Of a stretch of 64,000 nt of DNA, positions 15,251-46,642 are shown piece by piece. Origin of the DNA: Bacteroidales bacterium WCE2004 (GTDB lineage: Bacteria > Bacteroidota > Bacteroidia > Bacteroidales > UBA932); NCBI GenBank assembly GCA_900167895.1, contig FUZR01000002.1, positions 62,001 to 126,000 of the forward strand, given 5' to 3'. The stretch's first letter is position 1. Each line of letters opens with the position of its first letter. The notes under the pieces were generated by a model. The model saw only the letters and a program-made list of their open reading frames with translations. It did not search any database and had not been told where the DNA came from. The translations under genes were made by a program, and so were the position numbers.

Positions 15251-15258
15251 TATCTTTG
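15251..15258 (+). promoter_or_regulatory. -7 element of the integrase promoter
   Basis: TATCTTTG matches TAnnTTTG, 26 bases before the integrase ATG. No good -33 partner is visible at the standard spacing; that region is close to the arm repeats. Confidence 0.6.
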
Positions 15259-32797: not shown

Positions 32798-35700
32798 CTA
32801 ATATTCGTCCCAGCTCTTGATGCTGATCGCATCCTGCGGAACGGCGCAGAAGGCGCGGATGTAGGCGGTCGCGAGCCGGCTGTTGGTGATTAGCGGCACG
32901 TTGAAGTCGATGGCCGCACGACGCATCTGGTAGCCGTTGCTGAGCTCGCTGTGCGTGAAATTCTTGGGGATGTTGATCACCAGCTCCACCTCGTGCTTGC
33001 GGATGAGGTCCAGCGCGGCGGGAGCGCCTTCCTCCTGCTCGTTGGGCCAGAGGGCGCGCTTCGCGGGAACGCCGTTCTCGTTCAGGTATTTGCACGTGCC
33101 GGCGGTGGCGTAGATCGTGTAGTCCTTCTTCGCCAGGAGGAGACATGCGCGCAGCAGGTCGGCCTTCTGGAGCGGGTTGCCGGAAGAGATCAGGATGGAC
33201 TTCTGCGGGATGCGGTGGCCGACGGAGAGCATCGACTTGAGCAGCGCCTCATTGAGGTTGTCGCCGATGCAGCCCACCTCGCCGGTGGACGCCATGTCGA
33301 CGCCCAGCACCGGGTCGGCCTTGCCCAGACGGGCGAAGGAGAACTGGGAGCACTTGATGCCGACGTAGTCGAGCTCGAAGGGATCGATGTCGATCTTCTC
33401 CGGACGCTGGCCGAGCATGCAGCGCGTGGCCAGGTCGATGAAGTTGACCTTCAGGACCTTGGACACGAACGGGAAGCTGCGGGAAGCGCGGAGGTTGCAC
33501 TCGATGACCTTGATGTAGTTGTCGGTGGCGAGGAACTGGATGTTGAACGGTCCGGTGATGTGCAGCTCGGCGGCGATGGCGGCCGCGGTCTTGCGGATCT
33601 TGGCGGCCGTGATGCCGTAGATCTTCTGCGGCGGGAACTGGATGGTGGCGTCGCCGGAGTGCACGCCCGCGAACTCGATGTGCTCGGAGATCGCGTAGGC
33701 GATCACCTTGCCGCCATCGGCCACGGCGTCGCACTCAAGCTCCTTGCAGCGCTGCATGAAGGAGCTGATGACGACCGGATGCTCCTCGGACACCTCGACG
33801 GCCATGTCGAGGAAGATCCGCAGGTCCTCCTTGCTGTAGCAGACGTTCATCGCGGCGCCGGAGAGCACGTAGGACGGGCGGACGAGGACCGGGAAGCCGA
33901 CTTCGTCGACGAACTTGTCCACGTCTTCCATCGTCGTGAGCTCGCTCCAGCGCGGCTGGTCGATGCCCAGCTTGTCCACGATCTGGGAGAACTTGTTGCG
34001 GTCCTCGGCGCGGTCGATGTCGTGCGCCGTGGTGCCCAGGATGTGGACGCCGGCGCGCATCAGGGGCACGGCCAGGTTGTTCGGGATCTGGCCGCCCACG
34101 CTCACGATCACGCCGTAGGGCTTCTCCAGGCCGCAGATCTCCATGACGGTCTCGAAGCTCAGCTCATCGAAATAGAGCCGGTCGCAGACGTCGTAGTCGG
34201 TCGATACGGTCTCGGGGTTGTAGTTGATCATGATGGCCTTGTAACCGCTCTTGCGGAGCGTGTTCAGGGCATTCACGCCGCACCAGTCGAACTCCACGGA
34301 GCTGCCGATGCGGTAGGCGCCGGAACCCAGGACGATGACGGTGTTGGAGCCGTCCTCGAAGGTGATGTCGTCCACCTCGCCGTTGTAGGTCATATAGAGA
34401 TAGTTGGTCGAGGAAGGGAACTCCGCGGCCAGGGTGTCGATTTGCTTGACATACGGGCGCAGGCCCAGGAAGGCGCGCAGTTCGCGGACCTTGGCCTCGG
34501 TCGTGCCGATCACGCGCGCGATCTGGATGTCCGAGAAGCCCTGGCACTTGGCCTTCTTGAGCAGGTCGAATCCGATGTCCGTCAGCTGCTTGCAGGATTC
34601 GAGCTCACGATAGGTGTTCTCGATGCCGGCCAGCTTGCAGAGGAACCAGCGGTCGATCTTGGTCAGCTCATAGATGCGGTCCACCGTGTAGCCGGCCTCG
34701 AAGGCGGCGGCGATGGCGAAGATGCGCATGTCCGTCGGATGGCGCAGCAGGTCGTCGAGGTCGTCGCGCTTGAACGGCTTGTTGCACACGAAGCCGTTGG
34801 CTCCCTGGCCGATCATGCGCAGACCCTTCTGCATCGCCTCTTCGAAGGTGCGGCCGATGGCCATCACCTCGCCGACGCTCTTCATGCTGGAGCCGATCTC
34901 GCGGGACACGCCCTTGAATTTATTGAGGTCCCAGCGCGGGATCTTACAGACCACATAGTCCAGCGCAGGCTCGAAGAAGGCGGGCGTGGTCTTGGTCACG
35001 GTGTTCTTGAGCTCGTGCAGGCCGTAGCCGAGGCCGATCTTGGCCGCGATGAAGGCGAGGGGATAGCCCGTGGCCTTGGAGGCCAGGGCGGAGGAGCGGC
35101 TCAGACGGGCGTTGATCTCGATCACGCGGTAGTCCTCGCCGTCCGGGCTGAAGGCATACTGGACGTTGCATTCGCCCACGATGCCGACGTGGCGGACGAT
35201 GTCGATGGCTTTCTTGCGCAGGAAGTTGCATTCGTCGTTGGTGAGCGTCTGGCAGGGAGCGACCACGATGCTCTCGCCGGTATGGATGCCGAGCGGGTCG
35301 AAATTCTCCATGTTACAGACCGCGATGCAGTTGTCGAAGCGGTCTCGCATGACCTCGAACTCGATCTCCTTCCAACCGCGCAGCGACTTCTCCACCAGCA
35401 CCTGCGGGGAGAAGGAGAACGCCTTGCGCGCCACGGTCTCGAGTTCTTCCTCATCCTCGCAGAATCCGGAGCCCAGGCCGCCCAGGGCGTAGGCGGCGCG
35501 CAGGATGACCGGGTAGCCGACCTCGCGGGCGGCCGCCCGGGCCTCCTCCAGGTTGGCGGCGGGATGGGACTTGATGGTCTTGATGTCGATCTCGTCCATG
35601 CGCTCCACGAAGAGCTCACGGTCTTCCGTGTCGATGATGGCCTGGACCGGGGTGCCGAGCACCTTGACGCCGTTGGCCTCGAGGACGCCGCCCTTGTAGA

Positions 35701-36001
35701 GCGCCACGCCGCAGTTGAGCGCGGTCTGTCCGCCGAAGGCGAGCAGGATGCCCTGCGGCTTCTCCTTCTTGATGACCTTCTCCACGAAGAAGGGGGTCAC
35801 GGGCAGGAAATAGACCTTGTCGGCGACGCCTTCGGAGGTCTGCACCGTAGCGATGTTTGGGTTGATGAGGACCGTCTTGATGCCCTCCTCCCGGAGGGCC
35901 TTGAGGGCCTGCGAGCCGCTGTAGTCAAATTCGCCGGCTTCGCCGATCTTGAGGGCGCCCGATCCGAGCACCAGAACTTTCTTTATGTTGGGGTCGATCA
36001 T
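32798..36001 (-). CDS. carB: Carbamoyl-phosphate synthase, large subunit
   Basis: 1067 residues with the duplicated ATP-grasp organisation: the first half begins KKVLVLGSGALKIGEAGEFD, the second NTVIVLGSGAYRIGSSVEFDW, and a C-terminal MGS-like allosteric domain follows from about residue 930. It makes carbamoyl phosphate from bicarbonate, ammonia and two ATP, feeding both arginine and pyrimidines. The start overlaps carA (ATGA). Full length and all major motifs are present. Confidence 0.97.
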   Translation of the reverse strand: MIDPNIKKVLVLGSGALKIGEAGEFDYSGSQALKALREEGIKTVLINPNIATVQTSEGVADKVYFLPVTPFFVEKVIKKEKPQGILLAFGGQTALNCGVALYKGGVLEANGVKVLGTPVQAIIDTEDRELFVERMDEIDIKTIKSHPAANLEEARAAAREVGYPVILRAAYALGGLGSGFCEDEEELETVARKAFSFSPQVLVEKSLRGWKEIEFEVMRDRFDNCIAVCNMENFDPLGIHTGESIVVAPCQTLTNDECNFLRKKAIDIVRHVGIVGECNVQYAFSPDGEDYRVIEINARLSRSSALASKATGYPLAFIAAKIGLGYGLHELKNTVTKTTPAFFEPALDYVVCKIPRWDLNKFKGVSREIGSSMKSVGEVMAIGRTFEEAMQKGLRMIGQGANGFVCNKPFKRDDLDDLLRHPTDMRIFAIAAAFEAGYTVDRIYELTKIDRWFLCKLAGIENTYRELESCKQLTDIGFDLLKKAKCQGFSDIQIARVIGTTEAKVRELRAFLGLRPYVKQIDTLAAEFPSSTNYLYMTYNGEVDDITFEDGSNTVIVLGSGAYRIGSSVEFDWCGVNALNTLRKSGYKAIMINYNPETVSTDYDVCDRLYFDELSFETVMEICGLEKPYGVIVSVGGQIPNNLAVPLMRAGVHILGTTAHDIDRAEDRNKFSQIVDKLGIDQPRWSELTTMEDVDKFVDEVGFPVLVRPSYVLSGAAMNVCYSKEDLRIFLDMAVEVSEEHPVVISSFMQRCKELECDAVADGGKVIAYAISEHIEFAGVHSGDATIQFPPQKIYGITAAKIRKTAAAIAAELHITGPFNIQFLATDNYIKVIECNLRASRSFPFVSKVLKVNFIDLATRCMLGQRPEKIDIDPFELDYVGIKCSQFSFARLGKADPVLGVDMASTGEVGCIGDNLNEALLKSMLSVGHRIPQKSILISSGNPLQKADLLRACLLLAKKDYTIYATAGTCKYLNENGVPAKRALWPNEQEEGAPAALDLIRKHEVELVINIPKNFTHSELSNGYQMRRAAIDFNVPLITNSRLATAYIRAFCAVPQDAISIKSWDEY

Positions 36002-37074
36002 AACAGGGAGATAAAGTCGTCAAAGATGAATTCGGTATCCTCCGGGCCGCTGGAGGCCTCGGGGTGGAACTGGGCGGAGAAGAAGGGTTTGGACTTGTGC
36101 CGGATGCCTTCGTTGGTGCCGTCGTTCATGTTGATGAAGTAGGGCTCCCACTCGGCGGGCAGCGTATCTTCCTTGATGGCATAGCCGTGGTTCTGCGCCG
36201 TGATGTAGCAGTTGGTCGTGCCGGCCTGGCGCACCGGCTGGTTGTGGGAGCGGTGGCCGTATTTGAGCTTGTAGGTCTTGGCGCCGGCTGCGATGCCGAG
36301 CAGCTGGTTGCCCAGGCAGATGCCGCAGATGGGCTTGCCCGTCTCCATCGCCTTGCGGATGTGCTCCACGGTGACGGCGCAGTGGACCGGGTCGCCCGGG
36401 CCGTTGGAGATGAACAGGCCGTCCCACTCGAGCTGGTTGAAATCGTAGTCCCAGGGCACGCGGATGACCTCGACGTTGCGGACGATCAGGTTGCGGAGGA
36501 TCTGGTGCTTGACGCCGCAGTCCACCAGGACCACCTTCTTGTCTCCCTGTCCGTAGCGGATGATTTCCTGGCAGGAGACCTTCGCGACCTGGTTCTCCAG
36601 GCTCGGGTCGGCCACCTCGAACGCACTGTCGTCGTCGGCCGGGACGATCTTGCCGAGCATCGAACCCTCTTCGCGGAGAATCTGGGTCAGCAGGCGGGTG
36701 TCGATCCCGTAGATGCCGGGGACCTTCTGCTCCTCCATCCAGGCGCCCAGGCTCTTGACGGCGTCCCAGTGGCTGTATTCTTCGCAGTAATCGGTCACGA
36801 TCAGGCCGCGGATGTGGATCTTCTCGGACTCGAAGCCCTTCAAGAGGCCACCGGCGTCAGACATCATCTTGGAAATGCCGTAATTGCCGAGGATCGGATA
36901 CGTGATACAGAGGATCTGTCCCTCGAAGGACGGGTCCGTGAGGCTCTCCGTATAGCCGACCATGGCCGTGGAGAAGACCACTTCTCCGTCGCAGGGACCG
37001 TCGTAGCCGAAGCTCCAGCCCTCCATTGTGCGTCCGTTCTGCAGGACGAGTTTCACTTTTTTGCGTGTTGCCAT
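35998..37074 (-). CDS. carA: Carbamoyl-phosphate synthase, small (glutaminase) subunit
   Basis: 358 residues. The C-terminal class I amidotransferase has the nucleophile Cys in GICLGNQLLG and the His/Glu of QFHPEASSGPED; the N-terminal CPSase_sm domain has GYTESLTDPSFEGQI. It supplies ammonia from glutamine to CarB. It follows argH by 16 bases within the arginine operon, so carbamoyl phosphate supply is co-regulated with the carbamoyltransferase step. Confidence 0.97.
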   Translation of the reverse strand: MATRKKVKLVLQNGRTMEGWSFGYDGPCDGEVVFSTAMVGYTESLTDPSFEGQILCITYPILGNYGISKMMSDAGGLLKGFESEKIHIRGLIVTDYCEEYSHWDAVKSLGAWMEEQKVPGIYGIDTRLLTQILREEGSMLGKIVPADDDSAFEVADPSLENQVAKVSCQEIIRYGQGDKKVVLVDCGVKHQILRNLIVRNVEVIRVPWDYDFNQLEWDGLFISNGPGDPVHCAVTVEHIRKAMETGKPICGICLGNQLLGIAAGAKTYKLKYGHRSHNQPVRQAGTTNCYITAQNHGYAIKEDTLPAEWEPYFINMNDGTNEGIRHKSKPFFSAQFHPEASSGPEDTEFIFDDFISLL

Positions 37075-37090
37075 ATAACAGTTTGATAAT

Positions 37091-38410
37091 CTATTTCCAG
37101 TCGGAAGCCGCGTCCATCAGCGCGGCGATCTTGTCGTTGCATAAGTTGCCCAGGCTCCCCAGGTGCGTGTGCCCCAGGTCGGAAGCGCGCAGCCTGGCGG
37201 GGTCGCCGCCCGCGTAGCGGAAGCGGCCCTCGTTGACCTCGACGCCCACCTGCCGGTAGGCCTCGCGGAACGGCGTGCCGGCGAGGGTGCGGCGGTTGAC
37301 CTCCTCGACCGTGAAGAGGTAGCCGTAGAGGGGATTCTCGAGGATATGGTCGTTGACCTCGATGTGCGCGAGCATGTAGTCCGTCATCTGCAGGCACTCG
37401 TGCATCAGCTCCAGGGCGGGGAAGAGGACGTCCTTGAGGAGCTGGTAGTCGCGGTGGTAGCCGTGCGGCATGTTGCTGCACATCATCGCGATCTCGTTCT
37501 CGCAGGCCAGGATCCGGTTGCACTTGCCGCGCAGGATCTCCCACACGTCGGGATTCTTCTTGTGCGGCATGATGCTGGAGCCCGTGGTCAGCTCGTCCGG
37601 GAAGTGGATGAAGCCGAAGTTGGGGCACATATACTGGCAGCAGTCGGCCGCGAATTTATTGAGCGTCAGCGCGATGCTGCCCATCGCGGAGGCCACGGCG
37701 CGCTCGGTGCGGCCGCGCTGCATCTGGGCGGCGACGCTGTTGTAGACAGGGGAGGCGAAGCCCAGCAGGTCCGTCGTCATCTGGCGGTCGAGCGGGAAGG
37801 AATTGCCGTAGCCCGCGGCGGAGCCGAGCGGGTTGCGGTCGACCACCTTGTAGGCGCCGCCCAGCAGGTACATGTCGTCCACGAGGGCTTCGGCGTAGGC
37901 GCCGAACCACAGGCCGAAGGACGAGGGCATCGCCACCTGCGCGTGCGTGTAGCCGGGCAGGAGCACCTCTTTGTGCTTCTCGCTGAGCGCCTGGAGCGTG
38001 CGGAAGACGGTTAGCACCTCGTCGCGCAGCGTGCGGAGCTCGTCGCGCAGGAAGAGCTTGAGGTCCACGAGCACCTGGTCGTTGCGGGAGCGGCCGGAGT
38101 GGATCTTCTTGCCGACCTCGCCCAGCTCGCGGGTGAGCAGGAGTTCGACCTGGGAGTGGATGTCCTCGACGTCGGGCTCGAGCGTGAAGTCGCCGGCCTC
38201 GATGCGCTCTGCGATGCGGGCCAGGGCGGCGTCCAGCGCGGACAGCTCGTCGGCCGTCAGCAGGCCGATGCGCTCCAGCATCTTGATGTGCGCCCGGGAG
38301 CCCTGCACGTCGTAGCGCGCCAGCCGGAGGTCCAGCACGCGGTCGTTGCCGACCGTGAAGCGGTCGACGGCCTCGGTTGCAGAAGTGCCTTTATTCCAAA
38401 GAGTTGCCAT
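37091..38410 (-). CDS. argH: Argininosuccinate lyase
   Basis: 439 residues of the fumarase/aspartase superfamily with the signature GSSIMPHKKNPD and EDIHSQVELLLT near residue 87. It splits argininosuccinate to arginine and fumarate, the final step. ATG at 38408-38410 matches the family N-terminus (MATLWNKG) and overlaps the deacylase gene by 20 bases. Confidence 0.96.
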   Translation of the reverse strand: MATLWNKGTSATEAVDRFTVGNDRVLDLRLARYDVQGSRAHIKMLERIGLLTADELSALDAALARIAERIEAGDFTLEPDVEDIHSQVELLLTRELGEVGKKIHSGRSRNDQVLVDLKLFLRDELRTLRDEVLTVFRTLQALSEKHKEVLLPGYTHAQVAMPSSFGLWFGAYAEALVDDMYLLGGAYKVVDRNPLGSAAGYGNSFPLDRQMTTDLLGFASPVYNSVAAQMQRGRTERAVASAMGSIALTLNKFAADCCQYMCPNFGFIHFPDELTTGSSIMPHKKNPDVWEILRGKCNRILACENEIAMMCSNMPHGYHRDYQLLKDVLFPALELMHECLQMTDYMLAHIEVNDHILENPLYGYLFTVEEVNRRTLAGTPFREAYRQVGVEVNEGRFRYAGGDPARLRASDLGHTHLGSLGNLCNDKIAALMDAASDWK

Positions 38411-39479
38411 ATAAATTCTCAATAAAAGCTATGTATCCGTCAATGCCTTCCGCGATCTCGCGCGTCAGGATGTATTCGTCCGCCTTGTGCGAACGGGAAG
38501 AGTCGCCGGGCCCCATCTTGACGGCATCCACCGGGATGCGCATCCAGTCGGATGTGGTCGGCGAGGAGAAGGTCTCGATGCCGAGGGCCGCGGCCGTGCG
38601 CAGCAGCGCCGAGCCGGGCCGCGTGGCCGACGAGCGGTTCAGGAGGTTGCGCGGCGAGAGCCGGCTGCGGCACAGCGCCTGCAGTTCGTCCACGATCTCC
38701 TGGTTGTCGTATTGTTCCGTCGGGCGGATGTCCACCACGAAGCGGCAGCGGTCGGGGATGACGTTGTGCGCCTGTCCGGCCTGGATCTGCGTGACGCTGA
38801 GATGGACGTCGCCCATCAGGGGAGAATGCTTCGCAAAAACGTGCGCGCGCAGCGCGGCGATGTCGTCCAGCGCGATGTAGAGCGCGTTGACGCCTTCGTT
38901 GCGGGCGGCGTGCCCGCTGACGCCCTGCGCCTCGCCGTCCAGCACCAGCAGGCCGCGCTCGCTCGTGGCGGCGCGCATGCAGGTCGGCTCGCCGACAAGC
39001 ACCCACTTGGGCCAAGGATAGCGGCCGGTGGCGAAGATGCCCTCCGGGCCGAAGAGCCAGCGCGTCCCGTCGGGGCCGCTGACCTCCTCCTCGCGCACGA
39101 GCAGGAGCATCAGGTTGATGGGGAGCTCACGCTCAAAAAAATGGCGGAATGCAGCAATCATCGACACTACACTTCCGCCATCGTCATTGGAACCAAGGCC
39201 ATAGATGATATCGGGATCGTTGCCCGAATCATACGGGTCGCGGGTATATCCGTTGTTGACGGGGACCGTGTCGAGATGCGCATCGAGGGCGAGGGTCGGC
39301 CTGGCGGGATCGAAATGGCGGTTGACGGCGACGATATTGCCGTTGAACCGCTCGCAGCGGATGCCGGCCGACTCCAGGAAAGAAGCAACGCAGGCGGCGA
39401 CGTCCGATTCTTGCCCGGAGAGGGAAGGGATACGGACCATCTGCCGCAGAAGCTCTATGGATTGTTCGTGCAAACTCAT
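38391..39479 (-). CDS. argE: M20 deacylase of N-acylcitrulline/ornithine (ArgE-like)
   Basis: 362 residues of the M20 metallopeptidase family. Metal ligands are seen in DAHLDTVP, GSNDDGGS, REEEVSG and VGEPT; a dimerisation domain lies between about residues 165 and 270. In this pathway, which lacks argJ and carries an N-acylornithine carbamoyltransferase, the enzyme probably removes the acyl group from N-succinylcitrulline to give citrulline. It is flanked by argB and argH with overlaps on both sides. Confidence 0.88.
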   Translation of the reverse strand: MSLHEQSIELLRQMVRIPSLSGQESDVAACVASFLESAGIRCERFNGNIVAVNRHFDPARPTLALDAHLDTVPVNNGYTRDPYDSGNDPDIIYGLGSNDDGGSVVSMIAAFRHFFERELPINLMLLLVREEEVSGPDGTRWLFGPEGIFATGRYPWPKWVLVGEPTCMRAATSERGLLVLDGEAQGVSGHAARNEGVNALYIALDDIAALRAHVFAKHSPLMGDVHLSVTQIQAGQAHNVIPDRCRFVVDIRPTEQYDNQEIVDELQALCRSRLSPRNLLNRSSATRPGSALLRTAAALGIETFSSPTTSDWMRIPVDAVKMGPGDSSRSHKADEYILTREIAEGIDGYIAFIENLYGNSLE

Positions 39480-40255
39480 ATCTTCAATTCCGTGCCGCCT
39501 GGCTCCAACAGGCGCGCTGCGTTGCGGATGACTACGCCGGCGGCACCATCCCGCAGTGCCTGGAACGCATTGTCGAGTTTGGGAATCATCCCTTCGACGA
39601 CGCGTCCTTCGGCTTTCAGACGCCCGTAGGCGTCCGGATCTAGGAGGGGGATTACGCTCTGCTCGTCATTCCGGTCACAAAGTACGCCATTTTTCTCGAA
39701 ACAATAAAATAATTTTGCACCCAAGGCGACAGAAATTGCAGATGCCATCGTGTCGGCATTGGTATTGAGCAGCTGACCGGCCCCGTCGTGGTTGATCGCG
39801 CAGAAGACCGGGGTCAGCCCCGCGTCGAGCAGCTGCCTGACGAAAGGCACGTTGACGCTCGCAGCCGTGACGTCGCCCACGAAGCCGAAATCCACCTTCG
39901 TGACGCCGTCGGAGAGGGTTTTGGGCGCGCGTTTGCGGGCCGTGACCGCGCCGCCGTCGCAGCCGGCCAGGCCGATGGCGTTGCAGCCGTGCTTCTGCAG
40001 GCGCGCCACGATGTCCTTGTTGCACAGGCCGGCATAGACCATCGTCACGACCTCGAGCGTGGCCGCGTCGGTGACGCGCCGGCCCTCGATCTTGACGGGC
40101 TCCTGGCCCAGCGCCTTCTGCATCTGGCTGGCCTTCACGCCGCCGCCGTGCACGATGACCTTCGGGCCCGGCAGGGCCGCGAATTCGGCGCAGAACTGCT
40201 CCAGCGCCACCGGGTCGTCCACGACGTTGCCGCCTATCTTATAGAGAGAGATCAT
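39476..40255 (-). CDS. argB: N-acylglutamate kinase
   Basis: 259 residues of the amino-acid kinase fold. Motifs: YKIGGNVVDD at the start, VIVHGGGVKASQ for phosphate binding, IEGRRVTDAATLEVV, and a C-terminal GMIPKLDNAFQALRDGA. It phosphorylates N-acylglutamate, probably the succinyl form here. Overlaps of four bases on each side tie it to argF' and argE. Confidence 0.95.
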   Translation of the reverse strand: MISLYKIGGNVVDDPVALEQFCAEFAALPGPKVIVHGGGVKASQMQKALGQEPVKIEGRRVTDAATLEVVTMVYAGLCNKDIVARLQKHGCNAIGLAGCDGGAVTARKRAPKTLSDGVTKVDFGFVGDVTAASVNVPFVRQLLDAGLTPVFCAINHDGAGQLLNTNADTMASAISVALGAKLFYCFEKNGVLCDRNDEQSVIPLLDPDAYGRLKAEGRVVEGMIPKLDNAFQALRDGAAGVVIRNAARLLEPGGTELKI

Positions 40256-41214
40256 AAGCTTTCGAGCATCCGTTTCATTACGACCTGGGCGGACACCGTG
40301 CGGTTGGCCGCCTCGGGGATCACCAGGCTCGTCGGCGCGTCGATCACCTCGTCGGAGACGATCATGTTGCGCCGCACGGGCAGGCAGTGCATGAAGTAAG
40401 CGTTATTGGTGACCGCCATGTGTCTGGCGTCCACGGTCCAGCCCATGTCCTTGCTCAGGATCCGGCCGTACTGCGCGGGGTCGGTGACGCCCGGGCAGCT
40501 CCAGTTCTTGGCATAGACGAAGTCGGCGCCTTCCAGGGCCTTCATCTGGTCGTATTCGACGGGCGCATTGCCCGCGAAGGCGGGATCCAGCTCGTAGCCG
40601 TGCGGGTGGGTGATGACGAAGTCGACGTCGGCCGCGTTCATCCATTCCGCGAAAGAGTTCGGCACGGCCTGGGGGAGGGCCCGCGGGTGCGGGGCCCAGG
40701 TCAGGACCACCTTGGGACGCTTTTTCTTGCGGTATTCCTCGATCGTGATCAGGTCGGCGAAGGCCTGGCAGGGGTGCACGGTGGCGGACTCCAGGCTGAT
40801 CACGGGCTTGCCGCCGTATTCGATGAACTGCTTGAGGACGGTCTCGTTGTAGTCGAAGCCGCGGTCCGTCAGGCCCGCGAAGGAGCGGATGCCGATCAGG
40901 TCGCAGTAGCTCGTCATCACGGGGATGGCCTCGCGCAGGTGCTCGGACTTGTCGCCGTCCATCACCACGCCCATCTCGGTCTCCAGTTTCCAGCTGTCCT
41001 GGCCGATGTTGAGCACGATGGGGCTCATGCCGAGGTTGATCGCAGCCTTCTGGCTGCTCAGGCGCGTGCGCAGGCTGCTGTTGAAGAAGACCAGCATGAT
41101 GGTCTTGTTCTCGCCCAGGTGCTTCCACGCATAGGGCGTGGCTTTCACCTGCTTCGCTTCCTCGAGCGCTGCGCCGAGGTCGCCGATGTCGCTGACGTGG
41201 AAGAATGTTTTCAT
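40252..41214 (-). CDS. argF': N-succinylornithine carbamoyltransferase
   Basis: 320 residues. Carbamoyl-phosphate motif FFNSSLRTR, HPCQAFAD and the C-terminal HCLPVRRN are present, together with the long TWAPHPRALPQAVPNSFAEW segment seen in Bacteroides N-succinylornithine carbamoyltransferase. From memory of published work, residue 90 (Pro in B. fragilis, Glu in the Xanthomonas acetyl enzyme) sets the acyl specificity. Here it is Ser90 in DGDKSEHL, a substitution reported to give succinyl preference. The product is N-succinylcitrulline. It overlaps argD and argB by four bases each. Confidence 0.9.
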   Translation of the reverse strand: MKTFFHVSDIGDLGAALEEAKQVKATPYAWKHLGENKTIMLVFFNSSLRTRLSSQKAAINLGMSPIVLNIGQDSWKLETEMGVVMDGDKSEHLREAIPVMTSYCDLIGIRSFAGLTDRGFDYNETVLKQFIEYGGKPVISLESATVHPCQAFADLITIEEYRKKKRPKVVLTWAPHPRALPQAVPNSFAEWMNAADVDFVITHPHGYELDPAFAGNAPVEYDQMKALEGADFVYAKNWSCPGVTDPAQYGRILSKDMGWTVDARHMAVTNNAYFMHCLPVRRNMIVSDEVIDAPTSLVIPEAANRTVSAQVVMKRMLESL

Positions 41215-42335
41215 CCGAGTACTTCTTTGAATGCGGTGAGGAACCGGTCGGCCTCCGCCCTGGTGAGGCAGAGCGGTGCGAGGAGCCGGATCATGTTCTG
41301 GCCGGCGACGCCGGTGAAGATGTGCTTGTCGTAGAGGAGCGCCTGCCGCAGGGGAGCGACGGGTTCGTTGAACTCGATACCCAGCATCAGGCCCTTGCCC
41401 CGCACTTCCTTGATGCGCGGGCTCTTGGGAAGCGATTCCTTGATGTAGTCGCCGACGGCGAGCGCGTTCGCGACCAGGCCCTCCTGCTCAATGATGTCGA
41501 GCACGGCCAGGGCGCCGGCGCAGGCGAGGTAGTTGCCGCCGAAAGTGGTGCCGAGCATGCCCTTGCGCGCCTGGAACTCGGGCGCGATCAGGATGCCGCC
41601 GCAGGGGAAGCCGTTGGCGATGCCCTTGCCCATCGTGATGATGCCCGGACGGATGCCGGCCCACTGGTGGGCGAAGAACTTGCCGGTGCGGCCGTAGCCG
41701 CTCTGGACCTCGTCCAGGATCAGGACGGCGCCGTACTGCTTGCAGAGGCGTTCGAGCGCCTGCAGGAAGGCGTATTCCGGCAGGTGGATGCCGCCGCAGC
41801 CCTGGATGCCCTCCACGATGACGCCCGCGACGTCGCCCTTGGCGAGTTCGGCCTCCACGGCCGCCGCGTCGTTGAGCTCGCAGAACGTCACCTTGTGGTG
41901 CGCGTTGAAGGGGGAGACGATGGACGGGTTGTCCGTCATCGCCACGGCGCCGGAGGTGCGGCCGTGGAAGCTGCGCCTGAACGCGACGATGCGGTCGCGT
42001 CCGGTATGGAAGGACGCCAGCTTGGCGGCATTCTCGTTGGATTCCGCGCCGCTGTTGTCCAGGAAGAGGGAATAATCCTCATAGCCGCTGGCGATGCCGA
42101 TGCGGCGGGCGAGTTCCTCCTGCAGCGGGTTGCGCACGCTGTTGGAATAGAAGCCGATCTTGCCGAGCTGGTCGGTGAGCACTTCGTTGTAGTGCGGGTG
42201 GCAGTGGCCCACGGAAATCACCGCGTGACCGCCATAGAGGTCCAGGTATTCCTGGCCCTTGTCGTCCCAGACCTTGCAACCTTTCGCCCGGACGGGCGTC
42301 ACGTTGAAGAGGGAGTAAACGTCGAACAATTCCAT
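41211..42335 (-). CDS. argD: N-acylornithine aminotransferase
   Basis: 374 residues, class III PLP aminotransferase. LILDEVQSGYGRTGKFFAHQ and the PLP lysine in TMGKGIANGFPCG are visible, with the N-terminal GGHAVISVGHCHP. It converts N-acylglutamate semialdehyde and glutamate to N-acylornithine and 2-oxoglutarate. It lies between argC and argF' in pathway order. Confidence 0.95.
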   Translation of the reverse strand: MELFDVYSLFNVTPVRAKGCKVWDDKGQEYLDLYGGHAVISVGHCHPHYNEVLTDQLGKIGFYSNSVRNPLQEELARRIGIASGYEDYSLFLDNSGAESNENAAKLASFHTGRDRIVAFRRSFHGRTSGAVAMTDNPSIVSPFNAHHKVTFCELNDAAAVEAELAKGDVAGVIVEGIQGCGGIHLPEYAFLQALERLCKQYGAVLILDEVQSGYGRTGKFFAHQWAGIRPGIITMGKGIANGFPCGGILIAPEFQARKGMLGTTFGGNYLACAGALAVLDIIEQEGLVANALAVGDYIKESLPKSPRIKEVRGKGLMLGIEFNEPVAPLRQALLYDKHIFTGVAGQNMIRLLAPLCLTRAEADRFLTAFKEVLG

Positions 42336-42341
42336 AGTCTG

Positions 42342-43304
42342 CTAGAATGCTGATGCCTTCAGCTTCAGGCCGGTAGTCTCCGGAATTCCGAAAATCAGGT
42401 TCATGTTCTGGACCGCCTGTCCGGACGCGCCCTTGAGGAGGTTGTCGATCACGGACGAGACGACCAGCGTGCCGCCGTGGACCTCAGGGGCCACGATGGC
42501 TTTGTTGGTGTTGACGACCTGCTTGAGGTCCACCGGACGGTCGGACACGAAGGTGAACGCCGCGCCGGCGTAGTAGTCCTGATAGAGCTTGAGCGCCTCT
42601 TCGCCCGTCAGGGACGTCTCCACGGTCACGGAGGCGAAGATGCCGCGGGCGAAGTCGCCGCGCATCGGGACGAACTGGATGTCGATGCCGTCCGCGCCCT
42701 GGAGGATGCCCAGGTTGCGGCCGATCTCCTTGAGGTGCTGGTGCTCGAAGACCTTGTAGGTCGAGAGGTTGTCCGTCCGCCAGCTGAAATGCGTGGTCGC
42801 GGAGGGCTTGACGCCGGCGCCGGTGGAGCCGGTGATGGCCGTCACGTGGACCGTGGACTTCAGCAGGCCGGCGGCGACCAGCGGCAGGAGCGCCAGCTGG
42901 ATGGCCGTGGCGAAGCAGCCGGGGTTGGCGATCTTGTCGGCGCCGAGGATCCGGTCGCGCTGCCACTCGGGCAGGCCGTAGACATAGCCCTCGGATTCGT
43001 CGCGGTAGTCCTGCGCCAGGTCCACCACCTTCAGGCCGGCGGGCCGGGCGTTCTCCGCCCAGAATTCACGGCTCTTGCCGTGGGCCGAGCAGAGGAAGAG
43101 CACGTCGACGGCATCGAGGTCGTAGCTGTCGCTGAAGCGCAGCTGCGTGTCTCCGAACAGGCCGCCGTGGACGTCGTACAGGAAGTTGCCGGCGTTGCTG
43201 GTCGAGTGCACGAAGACGATCTCCACCTCCGGATGGTTGACCAGGATGCGGAGCAGTTCGCCTGCCGTGTAGCCGGCGCCGCCGATGATGCCGACCTTAA
43301 TCAT
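42342..43304 (-). CDS. argC: N-acylglutamyl-phosphate reductase
   Basis: 320 residues. The NAD(P)-binding start VGIIGGAGYTAGELLRIL and the catalytic Cys in NPGCFATAIQLALLPL define ArgC. It reduces the acyl phosphate to the semialdehyde. It overlaps argG by eight bases. Confidence 0.96.
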   Translation of the reverse strand: MIKVGIIGGAGYTAGELLRILVNHPEVEIVFVHSTSNAGNFLYDVHGGLFGDTQLRFSDSYDLDAVDVLFLCSAHGKSREFWAENARPAGLKVVDLAQDYRDESEGYVYGLPEWQRDRILGADKIANPGCFATAIQLALLPLVAAGLLKSTVHVTAITGSTGAGVKPSATTHFSWRTDNLSTYKVFEHQHLKEIGRNLGILQGADGIDIQFVPMRGDFARGIFASVTVETSLTGEEALKLYQDYYAGAAFTFVSDRPVDLKQVVNTNKAIVAPEVHGGTLVVSSVIDNLLKGASGQAVQNMNLIFGIPETTGLKLKASAF

Positions 43305-44511
43305 TGCCCTTGAATTCGTCTTTGTGGTTGCCGTAGTAGACGCGCAGCGGGGTGGAGGTCACCTTGATGAAGCCCTTGGCCTCTTCGGCCGTCCAGCCCT
43401 TCTGGGTCTCGCCGTACTCGCCGAGCTTGCTCTTGACGAGGTCGTCGGGGGAGTCCACGCCCACGGTGGAGAAGCCGTAGGGGCGCAGCTCGAGGGTCAC
43501 GGTGCCGTTGACGTTGCGCTGGCTGCTCTCGAGCATCGCCTCGATGTCCCGCATCACGGGCTCGAGATACTGGCTCTCGTGCAGGAACATGCCGTACCAG
43601 TTGGCCACCTGGTCCTTCCAGTACTGCTGCCACTTGGAGAGGGTGAACTTCTCCAGGAACTTGTGGGCGCCGATGATGAGCATCGGGGCGGCCGCTTCGA
43701 AGCCCACGCGGCCCTTGATGCCGATGATGGTGTCGCCGACGTGCATGTCGCGGCCGATGCCGTAGGGCGCGCCGACGGCCTCCACGGCCTGGATGGCCGC
43801 GATCTTGTCGGTGTATTCCTTGCCGTTGACGCTCTTGAGCTCGCCCTTCTCGAAGCCGAGGCTCAGGATCTCGGAGCCGGTCTTGCTGACCTGCTTGAGG
43901 TAGGCGGATTCGGGCAGGCCCTGCTTCGAGTCGAGGATCTCGCCGCCGCAGATGGAGGTGCCCCAGATGCCGACGTTGTAGGAATATTTGAGCTTCGCGA
44001 AATCGGCCTTGAAGCCGTGCGCGTTGAGATAGTCGACTTCGTCCTTGCGGGAAAGGTTGCCGTCGCGGGTGAGGGTGATGATCTCCATGTTGGGGCACAT
44101 CACCAGGAAGGTCATGTCGAAGCGGACCTGGTCGTTGCCGGCGCCGGTGGAGCCGTGGGCGATGGCGTCCGCGCCGATCTCGTTGGCGTAGCGGGCGATG
44201 GCCATGCCCTGGAAAATGCGCTCGGAGGACACGGAAATGGGGTAGGTACCGTTGCGCAGGACGTTGCCATAGACCATGTATTTGAGGCTCTTGGCGTAGT
44301 ATTCCTGCGTGACGTCGAGGGTCACATACTTCGTGGCGCCCAGCTTGTAGGCGTTCTCTTCGTTGGTCTTGAGCTGCTCGGCGCTGAATCCGCCGGTGTT
44401 GGCGCAGGCGGCGTGCACTTCGTAGCCCTTCTCCTTGGCAAGATACATCACGGTGTAGGAGGTGTCCAGACCTCCGCTGAACGCGACGACGACTTTCTTT
44501 TTCTTCTCCAT
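43297..44511 (-). CDS. argG: Argininosuccinate synthase
   Basis: 404 residues with the ATP-pyrophosphatase loop VVVAFSGGLDTSYTVMYL at the N-terminus and AHGSTGAGNDQVRFD. It joins citrulline and aspartate using ATP. It is the second gene of the operon, 21 bases after the GNAT gene. Confidence 0.97.
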   Translation of the reverse strand: MEKKKKVVVAFSGGLDTSYTVMYLAKEKGYEVHAACANTGGFSAEQLKTNEENAYKLGATKYVTLDVTQEYYAKSLKYMVYGNVLRNGTYPISVSSERIFQGMAIARYANEIGADAIAHGSTGAGNDQVRFDMTFLVMCPNMEIITLTRDGNLSRKDEVDYLNAHGFKADFAKLKYSYNVGIWGTSICGGEILDSKQGLPESAYLKQVSKTGSEILSLGFEKGELKSVNGKEYTDKIAAIQAVEAVGAPYGIGRDMHVGDTIIGIKGRVGFEAAAPMLIIGAHKFLEKFTLSKWQQYWKDQVANWYGMFLHESQYLEPVMRDIEAMLESSQRNVNGTVTLELRPYGFSTVGVDSPDDLVKSKLGEYGETQKGWTAEEAKGFIKVTSTPLRVYYGNHKDEFKGND

Positions 44512-44532
44512 ATCTGTTTCGGTTTTATTCGT

Positions 44533-45093
44533 TTATTCCCCCGGATGGTGGATCTCCAGGTGCTCCTTGGGGTCGTAGAGCAGGCCGGTGCAGATGCACA
44601 TCTTGTAGTCATGGCTCTGCAGGATGTCGAAATGGCGGCAGCCCTCGCAGCCCTTCCAGAACTCCGGGTCGTCCGTGAGTTCGGTGTAGGGGACCGGGCG
44701 GAAGCCGAATTCGTAGTTCATCTTCATCACGGCGGCGCCGGTCGTGATCGAGAAGATCTTGGCGTCCGGGAAGAGCGTGCGCGACAGGATGAAGGTCTGC
44801 TCCTTGATGCGCCTGGCGATGCCCATGCCGCGGAACTTGTGCGCGACGATGAGACCGGAGTTGGCGACGAAGCTCTTGCCGCCCCAGGATTCGATGTAGG
44901 AGAAACCGGCGAATTCGCCCTCATCGGAAATGGCGATTACGGCCTTGCCGGCGCGGATCTTTTCATTGATGTACTCCGGCGTACGTTTGGCGATGCCGGT
45001 CTTGCGTTCAAGCGAAGAGATATAGATTTCTTCACAGATCTCTTCGGCGAAGCGGGTGTGGCTTTCGTCAGCCACCATGACTTGGATGTTCAT
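44533..45093 (-). CDS. GNAT acyltransferase, candidate first enzyme of the pathway
   Basis: 186 residues. The GNAT core has VAHKFRGMGIARRIKEQ (acyl-CoA pyrophosphate loop, Q/R-x-x-G-x-G/A pattern) and NYEFGFRPV near the end. A C-terminal extension holds clustered cysteines (GCEGCRHF, then MCICTGLL). It opens the arginine operon, which lacks argA and argJ, so it is the best candidate for acylating glutamate, perhaps with succinyl-CoA. Substrate and donor are inferred from context only. Confidence 0.75.
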   Translation of the reverse strand: MNIQVMVADESHTRFAEEICEEIYISSLERKTGIAKRTPEYINEKIRAGKAVIAISDEGEFAGFSYIESWGGKSFVANSGLIVAHKFRGMGIARRIKEQTFILSRTLFPDAKIFSITTGAAVMKMNYEFGFRPVPYTELTDDPEFWKGCEGCRHFDILQSHDYKMCICTGLLYDPKEHLEIHHPGE

Positions 45094-45183
45094 TTCTATA
45101 CAATAAAGCCCCTAATGGCAAGACAAACCGAGATTGTCAATTGCAATTATTGAGCGAAAATTCATATTGTTTTTTGTTGTTTT

Positions 45184-45212
45184 GTCATCTCCGGCCCGAC
45201 CGGGCAGATGAC
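45184..45212 (-). promoter_or_regulatory. Second leader hairpin of the arginine operon
   Basis: GTCATCT pairs with AGATGAC and CCCG with CGGG. On the transcript it is followed by AAAACAACAAAAAAC, not a U-run, so it is not a standard intrinsic terminator. It may help a Rho-dependent or translational switch. The following 90 bases up to the GNAT start hold no gene. Confidence 0.6.
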
Positions 45213-45221
45213 GCTGAATTT

Positions 45222-45259
45222 CCGAGGATGTGGGAGGGTTCTACGCCTCCTATCTTCGG
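45222..45259 (-). promoter_or_regulatory. First leader hairpin, overlapping the Arg codons
   Basis: CCGA-GAT-GGAGG pairs with CCTCC-ATC-TCGG with small internal bulges. Its 5' arm includes the last Arg codons and stop of the leader peptide, so a ribosome stalled there would prevent it from forming. Confidence 0.6.
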
Positions 45260-45294
45260 TCTCGTCGGGAAATCTGGCAATACACTTGCAACAT
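45250..45294 (-). CDS. Arginine leader peptide MLQVYCQISRRDRR
   Basis: A 14-codon frame starts at ATG 45292-45294, seven bases after the -7 element, and ends in TAG. The last five sense codons are CGA CGA GAC CGA AGA, giving Arg-Arg-Asp-Arg-Arg. CGA and AGA look rare in the surrounding genes, which mostly use CGC or CGG. Position, size and codon choice match amino-acid attenuator peptides, here in front of the arginine operon. The start would be almost leaderless, which Bacteroidota tolerate. Confidence 0.72.
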   Translation of the reverse strand: MLQVYCQISRRDRR

Positions 45295-45301
45295 AACTTC
45301 G

Positions 45302-45333
45302 CAAATGTAATAAAATATTTTAATATCTCCAAA
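45302..45333 (-). promoter_or_regulatory. Promoter of the arginine operon
   Basis: TTTG (complement of 45330-45333), exactly 20 bases, then TACATTTG (complement of 45302-45309). The spacer is an AT-rich, partly palindromic stretch. The transcript would have a leader of about 200 bases before the GNAT gene. Confidence 0.8.
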
Positions 45334-45396
45334 CTTTATCGGTCCGGAATATTTATTCTATTTGCAGTACGGCACTTACGACGCCCCGTCCGGGTA

Positions 45397-46593
45397 TTAC
45401 ATCTTCCGGGCCCGGACGGCCGCGGCAAGGGCCTCCAGGGCCGCCTGCAGGTTCGCGCGCGGGCAACCGATATTCAGACGCATGAAGCCGGTCCCCTCGG
45501 GTCCGAAGACGGTGCCGTCGTTGAGCGCGAGGCGCGCACCGTTGACGAAGAGGTCCACGAGCGCGGGCTGGGGGAGGCCCAGCCTGCGGCAGTCCAGCCA
45601 GACGAGGAAGGACGCCTGCGGGCGCACGGCGCGCACCTGCGGGAGATGGGCACGCAGCCAGCCGTCCACGAAGTCGACGTTGCCCTGCACGTACGCCAGC
45701 ATCTCGGCGCGCCAGGCCTTGCCGGCCTCCGTGTAGGCCGCGCGCGTGGCCTCGGCCGAGAAGATGGGCGGATAGTCGGTCTCGTTGGACTCCAGGTATT
45801 TGAAGAAAGGCTCCGCGAGCGCGGGGTTCTGCACGATGGCGTAGGAACTGACCACGCCTGCTATATTAAAGGTCTTGGAAGGGGCCATGAAGGTGATGGC
45901 GCAGCGCGCCGCGGCCTCGCTGACGGAAGCGAAGGGGATGTGGCGCCGCCCGCCGAGGACCATCTCCGCGTGGATCTCGTCCGACAGGACGATGATCCCG
46001 TGGCGGTCGCAGATGTCCGCCAGGCGGCGCAGCGTCTCTGCCGGGAAACAGACGCCGCCGGGGTTGTGCGGATTGCACAGCAGGAGGATCTTCGTGCGGG
46101 CGTCGATCTTGCTTTCCAGGTCCTCCAGGTCCATCTCGTAGGTCCGCAGGAATCCCTCGGCGTCATAGACGGGGCGCAGGGGATTGTTGACCACCTCGAA
46201 GCCGCTCTCCTCCGCCACGATGCGGAAAGGATGGTAGACCGGCTTCTGAATGATGACCTTGTCGCCGGGCTGCAGGAAGCAGCGCTCCGCGAAACCGAAT
46301 CCCTTGACGATGCCGGGCACGTAGCGGAAACACGACGCGGGGACCTTCCAGCCGTGCAGGTCCTCCACCCACTGCGAGACGATCCCGAAAAAGTCGTCAC
46401 CCGTGGAAGGGTAGCCCAGGACGGGATGGTCCAGGCGGCGCCGGAGCGCATCCAGGATGAAGTCCGGCGTGCGGAAGTCCATGTCAGCCACCCACAGAGG
46501 ATTCAGGTCCGGACGGCCGAAATGCTCCTGCAAGGTGTCATATTTGATGCAGCGGGTACCCCGCCGGGGAATGATTTCATCGAAATTGTACAT
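45397..46593 (-). CDS. PatB/MalY-type PLP lyase or aminotransferase
   Basis: 398 residues, fold type I PLP enzyme. The N-terminal RRGTRCIKYD, then NPLWVADMDFRTP, the NPHNPGG motif and the PLP lysine in APSKTFNIAG are typical of PatB/MalY cystathionine beta-lyases, which release homocysteine, or other thiols from Cys conjugates. It stands alone upstream of the arginine promoter and has no link to that pathway. An aromatic aminotransferase activity is a less likely alternative. Confidence 0.85.
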   Translation of the reverse strand: MYNFDEIIPRRGTRCIKYDTLQEHFGRPDLNPLWVADMDFRTPDFILDALRRRLDHPVLGYPSTGDDFFGIVSQWVEDLHGWKVPASCFRYVPGIVKGFGFAERCFLQPGDKVIIQKPVYHPFRIVAEESGFEVVNNPLRPVYDAEGFLRTYEMDLEDLESKIDARTKILLLCNPHNPGGVCFPAETLRRLADICDRHGIIVLSDEIHAEMVLGGRRHIPFASVSEAAARCAITFMAPSKTFNIAGVVSSYAIVQNPALAEPFFKYLESNETDYPPIFSAEATRAAYTEAGKAWRAEMLAYVQGNVDFVDGWLRAHLPQVRAVRPQASFLVWLDCRRLGLPQPALVDLFVNGARLALNDGTVFGPEGTGFMRLNIGCPRANLQAALEALAAAVRARKM

Positions 46594-46642
46594 ACGCTAC
46601 GAGAAATTGTCAGTGAGAAAACAAATTTATAAAATTTTTTAA

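Follow-up and report, generated by a model that had tools for sequence, protein, structure and literature searches.

Attenuators of the trp, his and leu operons carry, in a short leader frame, codons for the amino acid made by the operon; rare codons are used, and the regulatory codons overlap a hairpin. The fungal arginine attenuator peptide and SpeFL, for their part, are ribosome-arrest sensors of their ligands. The nearest described case to the leader reported here is, judged on the part of its account available to us, orf34 of Salmonella speF, in which a ribosome that pauses at Arg codons or the stop codon determines whether a hairpin located just after the stop can form, with Rho and mRNA decay as outputs (PMC6386406). 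Within the Bacteroidota, the available text on Flavobacterium psychrophilum describes leader-peptide attenuation of amino acid biosynthesis operons without naming arginine (PMC9723704), that on Bacteroides thetaiotaomicron reports possible leader peptides and about 3.7% of 5' UTRs shorter than 10 nt (PMC7366714), and that of a further study describes other uORF motifs (PMC8632094). Arginine side chains of proteins, finally, are bound by the arginine sandwich motif, of which ASM3 of 7SK is an example in the part of the source at hand (PMC6189040).

The locus analysed here lies in a window (the whole stretch of DNA examined) of 64,000 nucleotides, whose genus is apparently Candidatus Cryptobacteroides. 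It resembles the trp, his and leu attenuators in that the candidate regulatory codons match the product of the operon, are rare and overlap a hairpin; unlike these, it has a near-leaderless start, an invariant extra hairpin, no intrinsic terminator that we could find, and arginine as the amino acid concerned. Like speF orf34, it has a small frame at the start of the predicted transcript, rare Arg codons and a post-stop hairpin on which pausing would decide, whereas orf34, as described in the part of its account that we could use, encodes 34 amino acids with a conserved domain and controls ornithine decarboxylase in gammaproteobacteria, with no mention there of a comparable 27-nt hairpin (PMC6386406). 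The conserved HIRRT core of orf34/SpeFL, as given in the same partial source, was not found by eye in the leader peptides. The F. psychrophilum attenuators share with it the phylum and the type of operon, as far as the available text goes (PMC9723704). We found no arginine leader of this kind for the Bacteroidota in the accessible portions of the open-licence literature searched (supplements excluded); arginine biosynthesis would be added to peptide-leader control in this phylum, with a near-leaderless start.

The leader of the arginine operon

The features of the leader and of the operon are collected in Table 1. An aminotransferase gene lies upstream of the leader promoter, and the promoter itself, predicted from sequence and with an unmapped start, is of a class (TTTG-20-TACATTTG) that we take to be Bacteroidota-type. 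Seven nucleotides separate the -7 box from the ATG, and the MLQVYCQISRRDRR frame is probably near-leaderless. Its codons are ATG TTG CAA GTG TAT TGC CAG ATT TCC CGA CGA GAC CGA AGA TAG, so that the C-terminus reads Arg-Arg-Asp-Arg-Arg, written with CGA, CGA, CGA and AGA. These codons account for only 2 (CGA) and 5 (AGA) of the 298 Arg codons of 16 window genes; the tRNA-Arg anticodons present in the genome are TCT, ACG, CCT and CCG. The combination of a TAnnTTTG box, an ATG 6–10 nt further on and a frame of 8–35 amino acids occurs twice on the two strands of the window, the second instance lying at 15251 on the plus strand. When the window was shuffled in two-base blocks, such a box and frame with at least three Arg among the last six codons arose once in 200 shuffled windows.

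Table 1. Coordinates of the leader and operon features (positions in the window)
Feature	Position	Strand	Description
Predicted Bacteroidota-type promoter	45302..45333	-	-33 TTTG 45333-45330, 20-nt spacer, -7 TACATTTG 45309-45302
Leader peptide frame MLQVYCQISRRDRR, then stop	45250..45294	-	14 codons, ATG at 45294, TAG 45252-45250
Hairpin H1	45222..45259	-	CCGAAGATAGGAGG / CCTCCCACATCCTCGG, 5' arm overlaps last Arg codons and stop
Helix P2, 5' strand AAATTC	45216..45221	-	RNAalifold, 14 rows
Second hairpin of the original prediction	45184..45212	-	insert in the P2 loop, outside the conserved element
Helix P2, 3' strand GAATTT	45158..45163	-	RNAalifold, 14 rows
Outer AAT/ATT helix enclosing the core; small hairpin P4 (AGG...TTT) downstream of it	45104..45148	-	modest covariation
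Bulged core hairpin GCAATNGACAATCNMGGTTTGTCTTGC	45118..45144	-	27 nt, near-invariant
GNAT-family gene, first of the operon	44533..45093	-	Pfam PF13508 below cut-off
argG, argC, argD, carbamoyltransferase, argB, argE-like, argH, carA, carB	32798..44511	-	

The original prediction had read here, from the letters of the window, a promoter followed within ten bases by a 14-codon Arg-rich frame with rare CGA and AGA codons, whose last codons form the 5' arm of a hairpin, ahead of an eleven-gene arginine operon and with no U-run after the hairpins, and all of this could be confirmed: the gap and the codon counts are those given above, the hairpin is H1, and no terminator-like site with a U-run was found between 45000 and 45450. 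The eleven genes comprise the GNAT gene, the arg genes, carA and carB, plus a frame for an EamA-type transporter that overlaps the end of carB; the carbamoyltransferase is of the N-acetylornithine type, and the argE-like gene encodes an ArgE/DapE-like deacylase. No NCBIfam model matched the GNAT protein. Nor did any Rfam family cover the leader when 44000-46600 was searched, the sole match in that interval (45402-45515, E 0.11, 20.4 bits against a cut-off of 80) lying outside it.

As a whole, the leader folds moderately better than shuffled versions of itself (z -1.64, with 14 of 200 shuffles equally good). H1 pairs as CCGAAGAT-A-GGAGG / CCTCC-cac-ATCcTCGG, and over 68 unique stretches its fold has a mean z of -1.5 and a median of -1.2. 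The candidate regulatory Arg codons overlap or abut H1, an arrangement expected of a ribosome-mediated attenuator. In the leader type with a short frame, H1 starts after the stop (as judged by eye), and no helix involving the 5' strand of P2 was seen. A second hairpin that had been proposed as part of the attenuator does exist in the window; among 14 aligned rows, it recurs only in altered form in one other (L003), a third row (L014) having a different insert at that place and the other 11 lacking it, so that this structure is not conserved.

Two other elements of the region were considered and dropped. A second small frame, MNFRSIIAIDNLGLSCH (start 45165), has lost its start codon in some relatives that keep the RNA, and an ARG-box-like sequence noticed by eye near this frame was set aside because ArgR was not found in the genome. 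Directly after the stop of the leader frame lies a GGAGG (TAGGAGG, 45246-45252) that is perfectly Shine-Dalgarno-like, is present in many leaders and is also an arm of H1 here; Bacteroidota ribosomes are said to ignore Shine-Dalgarno signals.

Occurrence of the leader in related genomes

Thirty loci were retrieved, that of the window included, and the 14 with a full leader were aligned; conservation in this alignment extends over the frame, H1 and a 3' block. A covariance model (R1) was then run against 200 genomes of the same genus, a sample from a larger group; many of the genomes are incomplete. It gave 53 matches, one per genome, all of them on the strand of the GNAT gene and 9–114 nt before the GNAT match; the GNAT protein itself was found in 132 of the 200 genomes. 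As R1 was built on the core hairpin, strongly changed cores could have been missed.

We also scanned one genome for each of 84,980 species with a DNA pattern of the core, which yielded at least 119 stretches. All 80 pattern loci among the matches listed are titled as Bacteroidales, as Bacteroidia or with a name from within these groups, including two Rikenellaceae, one Alistipes and several Candidatus Cryptobacteroides. Among the same matches, a GNAT gene follows in the same orientation at 76 of the 80 loci, and at 76 of the 77 with enough downstream DNA (L119, L133 and L160 offer less than 90 nt from the core pattern on). The one exception (L100:1-600, minus strand) has a complete leader with MLCVCYQSSRRDRR and the core, followed by a gene for a calcineurin-like phosphoesterase (PF00149, 26.9 bits) instead of GNAT, and may represent either a genuine second target or an artificial join in the assembly.

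Among 344 genomes of the order, two contain the core with at most three mismatches (that of the window and one of the same genus), as do 6 of 119 genomes of the family, five of which, that of the window included, belong to its genus and one to another. A second model, R2, found a match in 22 of the 299 genomes searched in the family; 19 of these are in the genus of the window, which is itself among them (neighbouring genes checked in part), and two, G582 and G665, belong to two other genera and have leaders together with GNAT. Each of these two genomes is represented by a single contig, so mis-binning is possible; in the genus of G582, the core was present in G582 alone of three genomes. The remaining R2 hit (G587, E 0.006, another genus) falls inside an apparent coding region, without arg genes in the vicinity, and is regarded here as a false positive. 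In one assembly, that of Candidatus Cryptobacteroides intestinipullorum, two contigs (L105 and L138) each carry the core with GNAT, argG and argC.

Conservation of the small frame

The original prediction would have failed had the small frame and its Arg codons been lost in relatives. They are kept: 46 of the 53 R1 leaders have a frame in which CGA is one of the last two codons, 39 being recovered by a strict rule (box, then ATG) and 7 by a looser rule that demands CGA but no promoter box, and that hence selects for CGA. Five R1 leaders have no such frame (L022, L058, L083, L084 and L085, the last with 50 nt of upstream DNA only), and L051 and L074 have too little upstream DNA to judge. Over all distinct leaders, the strict rule finds a frame in 82 of 97, with 76 unique peptides; this set, which includes two mis-picked frames (L057, L061), also served for the folding, codon and spacing counts. 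In these 76 leaders, the ATG lies 6–10 nt from the -7 box (7 or 8 nt in 64 of them), and a TTG stands 18–20 nt upstream of that box in 24, the maximum among three-offset neighbourhoods.

The frames range from about 11 to 31 codons and share a common end point; four of them close with TAA rather than TAG. Among 81 unique frames, 76 have CGA as the next-to-last sense codon and none has another Arg codon there; the five exceptions are the two mis-picked frames, two that run past a lost TAG (L132, L171) and one in which CGA is last (L152). In many short frames, the only Arg codon is the one at the end. At positions other than the next-to-last, Arg codons are exchanged synonymously (CGA, AGA, AGG), and the synonymous share of single-base codon differences, counted over related and hence non-independent sequence pairs, is higher in the predicted frame than in the other two: 115/266 versus 42/294 and 88/338 for the 14-amino-acid set, 51/167 versus 38/178 and 17/181 for the 11-amino-acid set, and 13/29 versus 10/46 and 9/45 for the 30-amino-acid set. 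These sequence comparisons indicate that coding selection is focused on the terminal rare Arg codon. The codon before CGA is GTC in 52 frames, GAC in 12, GCC in 6 and GGC in 2 (72 of 81), that is, GNC with differing amino acids, a preference left unexplained by Arg decoding or coding selection. Since, in addition, CGA is not replaced by a synonym, a constraint at the RNA level may also act.

Distribution of the leader and of ArgR

ArgR control and the leader concern the same operon and presumably the same signal, but ArgR is a protein repressor, and its gene (PF01316) was not found in the genome of the window, the assembly of which is 95.31% complete. The same search was positive in 74 of the 200 genomes of the genus. 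The 132 genomes with GNAT divide into 1 with both leader and ArgR, 52 with the leader only, 65 with ArgR only and 14 with neither; leader and ArgR are thus almost mutually exclusive, ArgR being present in 1 of 53 leader genomes versus 65 of 79 leaderless ones (Fisher p 3.5e-22, shared descent being ignored). In the single genome with both (G153, 88% complete), ArgR lies next to a second GNAT gene on a different contig (C8, C30), possibly as a second operon or through a binning mix, and none of the 20 leader genomes with a completeness of 90% or more and a contamination of 5% or less has ArgR. In a second sample of 20 genomes, ArgR was found in 0 of 11 with the leader and in 4 of 9 without it, these nine being counted irrespective of GNAT. 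Where both ArgR and GNAT exist, they lie within 1.2 kb of each other in 60 of 66 genomes, argR occupying the place held by the leader in the others.

A GNAT tree of 106 rows requires the leader label to change 8 times, and supported branches force at least 4 of these changes. Fifty rows, with the ArgR labels of six tree loci or genomes set by hand from the PF01316 search of the genus, have a known ArgR state and provide 4 independent pairs on supported branches; on average, ArgR is opposite to the leader in 2.6 pairs, the same in 0.0 and without difference in 1.4 (sign test, median p 0.25). The tree is therefore consistent with repeated leader–ArgR swaps, the pairs being too few for significance.

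The 14 GNAT genomes with neither leader nor ArgR include some truncated contigs. Fourteen loci from 13 of them (G128 left out) contain no core within 3 mismatches, and their best matches to the 15 fixed inner-core bases have 4–7 mismatches.

At a single operon, a protein repressor appears to have given way naturally to an RNA leader, and the presence of both states in one genus makes the swap directly accessible to study. Many members of this large gut bacterial group lack ArgR, and the conserved leader looks like an undescribed way of sensing arginine.

The core hairpin

The most conserved part of the leader had escaped the original prediction. It is a 27-nt bulged hairpin with the consensus GCAAUNGACAAUCNMGGUUUGUCUUGC, found in all 53 model-derived leaders, each of which carries GCAATNGACAATCNNGGTTTGTCTTGC exactly. 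Seventy-five unique core sequences, that of the window included, align without gaps and vary only at the second bulge base, at two loop bases and, in G582, by one paired change from C-G to U-A. Row selection fixes the inner 15 bases in this set, but the 53 model hits were selected without that pattern. Pair counting on the alignment gives 94.7% of paired cells and a covariation score above that of all 500 shuffles; slid controls show a similar number of double changes, so the covariation is modest. Conserved almost base for base, this RNA is an easily tested candidate for binding a ligand or partner.

A pairing of CCGA, the Arg codon, with UCGG in the core loop was rejected by eye because cores with an AGG loop keep GTCCGA upstream. 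A T-box-like reading of the loop (NGG) found no Rfam match over 44000-46600.

One possible but doubtful reading of this element is that it acts as an aptamer for a small molecule, with arginine or a metabolite related to it as the likeliest ligand, and that the leader peptide would add a secondary input. Besides the near-invariance of the 75 sequences, the arrangement of an A-U pair, a bulged U, a G-C pair and an A-U pair, identical in 75 of 75 rows (inner positions partly by row selection) and combined with a free second bulge base, matches the arginine sandwich motif: in the part of the source available, ASM3 likewise has a two-base U-rich bulge with an A-U pair below and G-C and A-U pairs above (PMC6189040). 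The likeness was spotted after the fact and is so far a resemblance, and the literature searched, as far as its text was available, contained no natural metabolite riboswitch of the arginine-sandwich kind. If the core did bind arginine, a bulge known from RNA–protein contacts would serve as a metabolite sensor.

The core is also kept in leaders without an Arg frame: in L022, L084 and L106 it lies about 11 nt after a -7-like box, and a downstream segment can pair with its 3' arm (z -2.95, -3.06 and -5.21, respectively), leaders looking like a stand-alone switch. These three share a GGCAAGTCAGACYGRCAAA-like segment, placed within the loop of an A/U stem immediately upstream of the GNAT start. 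Over 83 distinct leaders, however, the downstream complement of the 3' arm is weak (mean z -0.85, with p at most 0.05 in 17 of 83, compared with -0.29 and 6 of 83 for the complement of the 5' arm), and it is weak or missing in the leader type of the window, being strong in some lineages only. Against an aptamer also stand the absence of any Rfam family over the core and the fact that the core alone barely outfolds its shuffles (p 0.066–0.104 for four variants).

It seems to us unlikely that the core is the binding site of an unknown protein, whether a regulator acting on RNA or a repressor that binds DNA and has replaced ArgR. The near-invariant sequence, the GACAA-N7-TTGTC inverted repeat that it contains and the 8 of 12 main-helix pairs that never vary would all suit such a site, but the half-sites are unequally spaced, owing to a two-base bulge on one side, which is unusual for a symmetric DNA-bound dimer. 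Moreover, the core lies 73 to 189 nt from the -7 box across leaders but about 11 nt from it in L022, L084 and L106, and it has a single orientation in the 53 model hits and in the 76 pattern loci among the matches listed.

Proposed mechanism

A frame at the 5' end, a terminal Arg codon bordering H1 and an arginine operon downstream together make the arrangement of a ribosome-read leader. We think it rather probable that this is a cis-acting, arginine-responsive RNA leader, read by the ribosome at its Arg codons, which took over from ArgR. When charged Arg-tRNA is scarce, the ribosome would pause at the CGA codon or codons; when arginine is plentiful, it would continue to the stop codon. The two positions would expose or cover H1 differently and thereby alter folding further down the leader, and the core hairpin would carry the outcome or supply a second input. 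As no intrinsic terminator was found, expression of the operon would be set via Rho, translation or RNA stability.

Attenuation by ribosome stalling, as originally proposed, is likely on these grounds: the promoter-proximal short frame has codons matching the product and is conserved, CGA is rare, a hairpin sits at the Arg codons and stop, and ArgR was not found in the genome. Other parts of that proposal fared less well. Besides the missing terminator and a second hairpin confined to 2 of 14 rows, a ribosome masked in silico at CGA or at the stop in 73 leaders did not consistently alter the fold at the GNAT start or the core (p 0.18–0.99 for the stalled case), and the highest conservation lies elsewhere, in the 27-nt core. 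Because the core is the most strongly conserved element and persists in a few lineages without an Arg frame, stalling may be only one of two inputs. A specific version, in which an Arg-tRNA-reading leader peptide and a 27-nt arginine-sandwich riboswitch form one sensor that was swapped with ArgR repeatedly within the genus, strikes us as quite improbable.

The peptides themselves vary freely at the N-terminus. Of 81, 73 end in R, I or L, and most have V, D, A or G at the third position from the end; only the Arg near the C-terminus is near-constant. This lack of a conserved peptide sequence sets them apart from the fungal attenuator type and makes it very improbable, despite the fixed stop and an Arg fixed two codons from it, that the leader encodes an arrest peptide sensing free arginine inside the ribosome.

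A minor observation concerns one of the loci retrieved: ARAGORN reported a tmRNA at L220:999-1392 with the tag GNYNYSYAC. Usual tmRNA tags have an ALAA-type end, which this one lacks, and the tag is perhaps mis-read.
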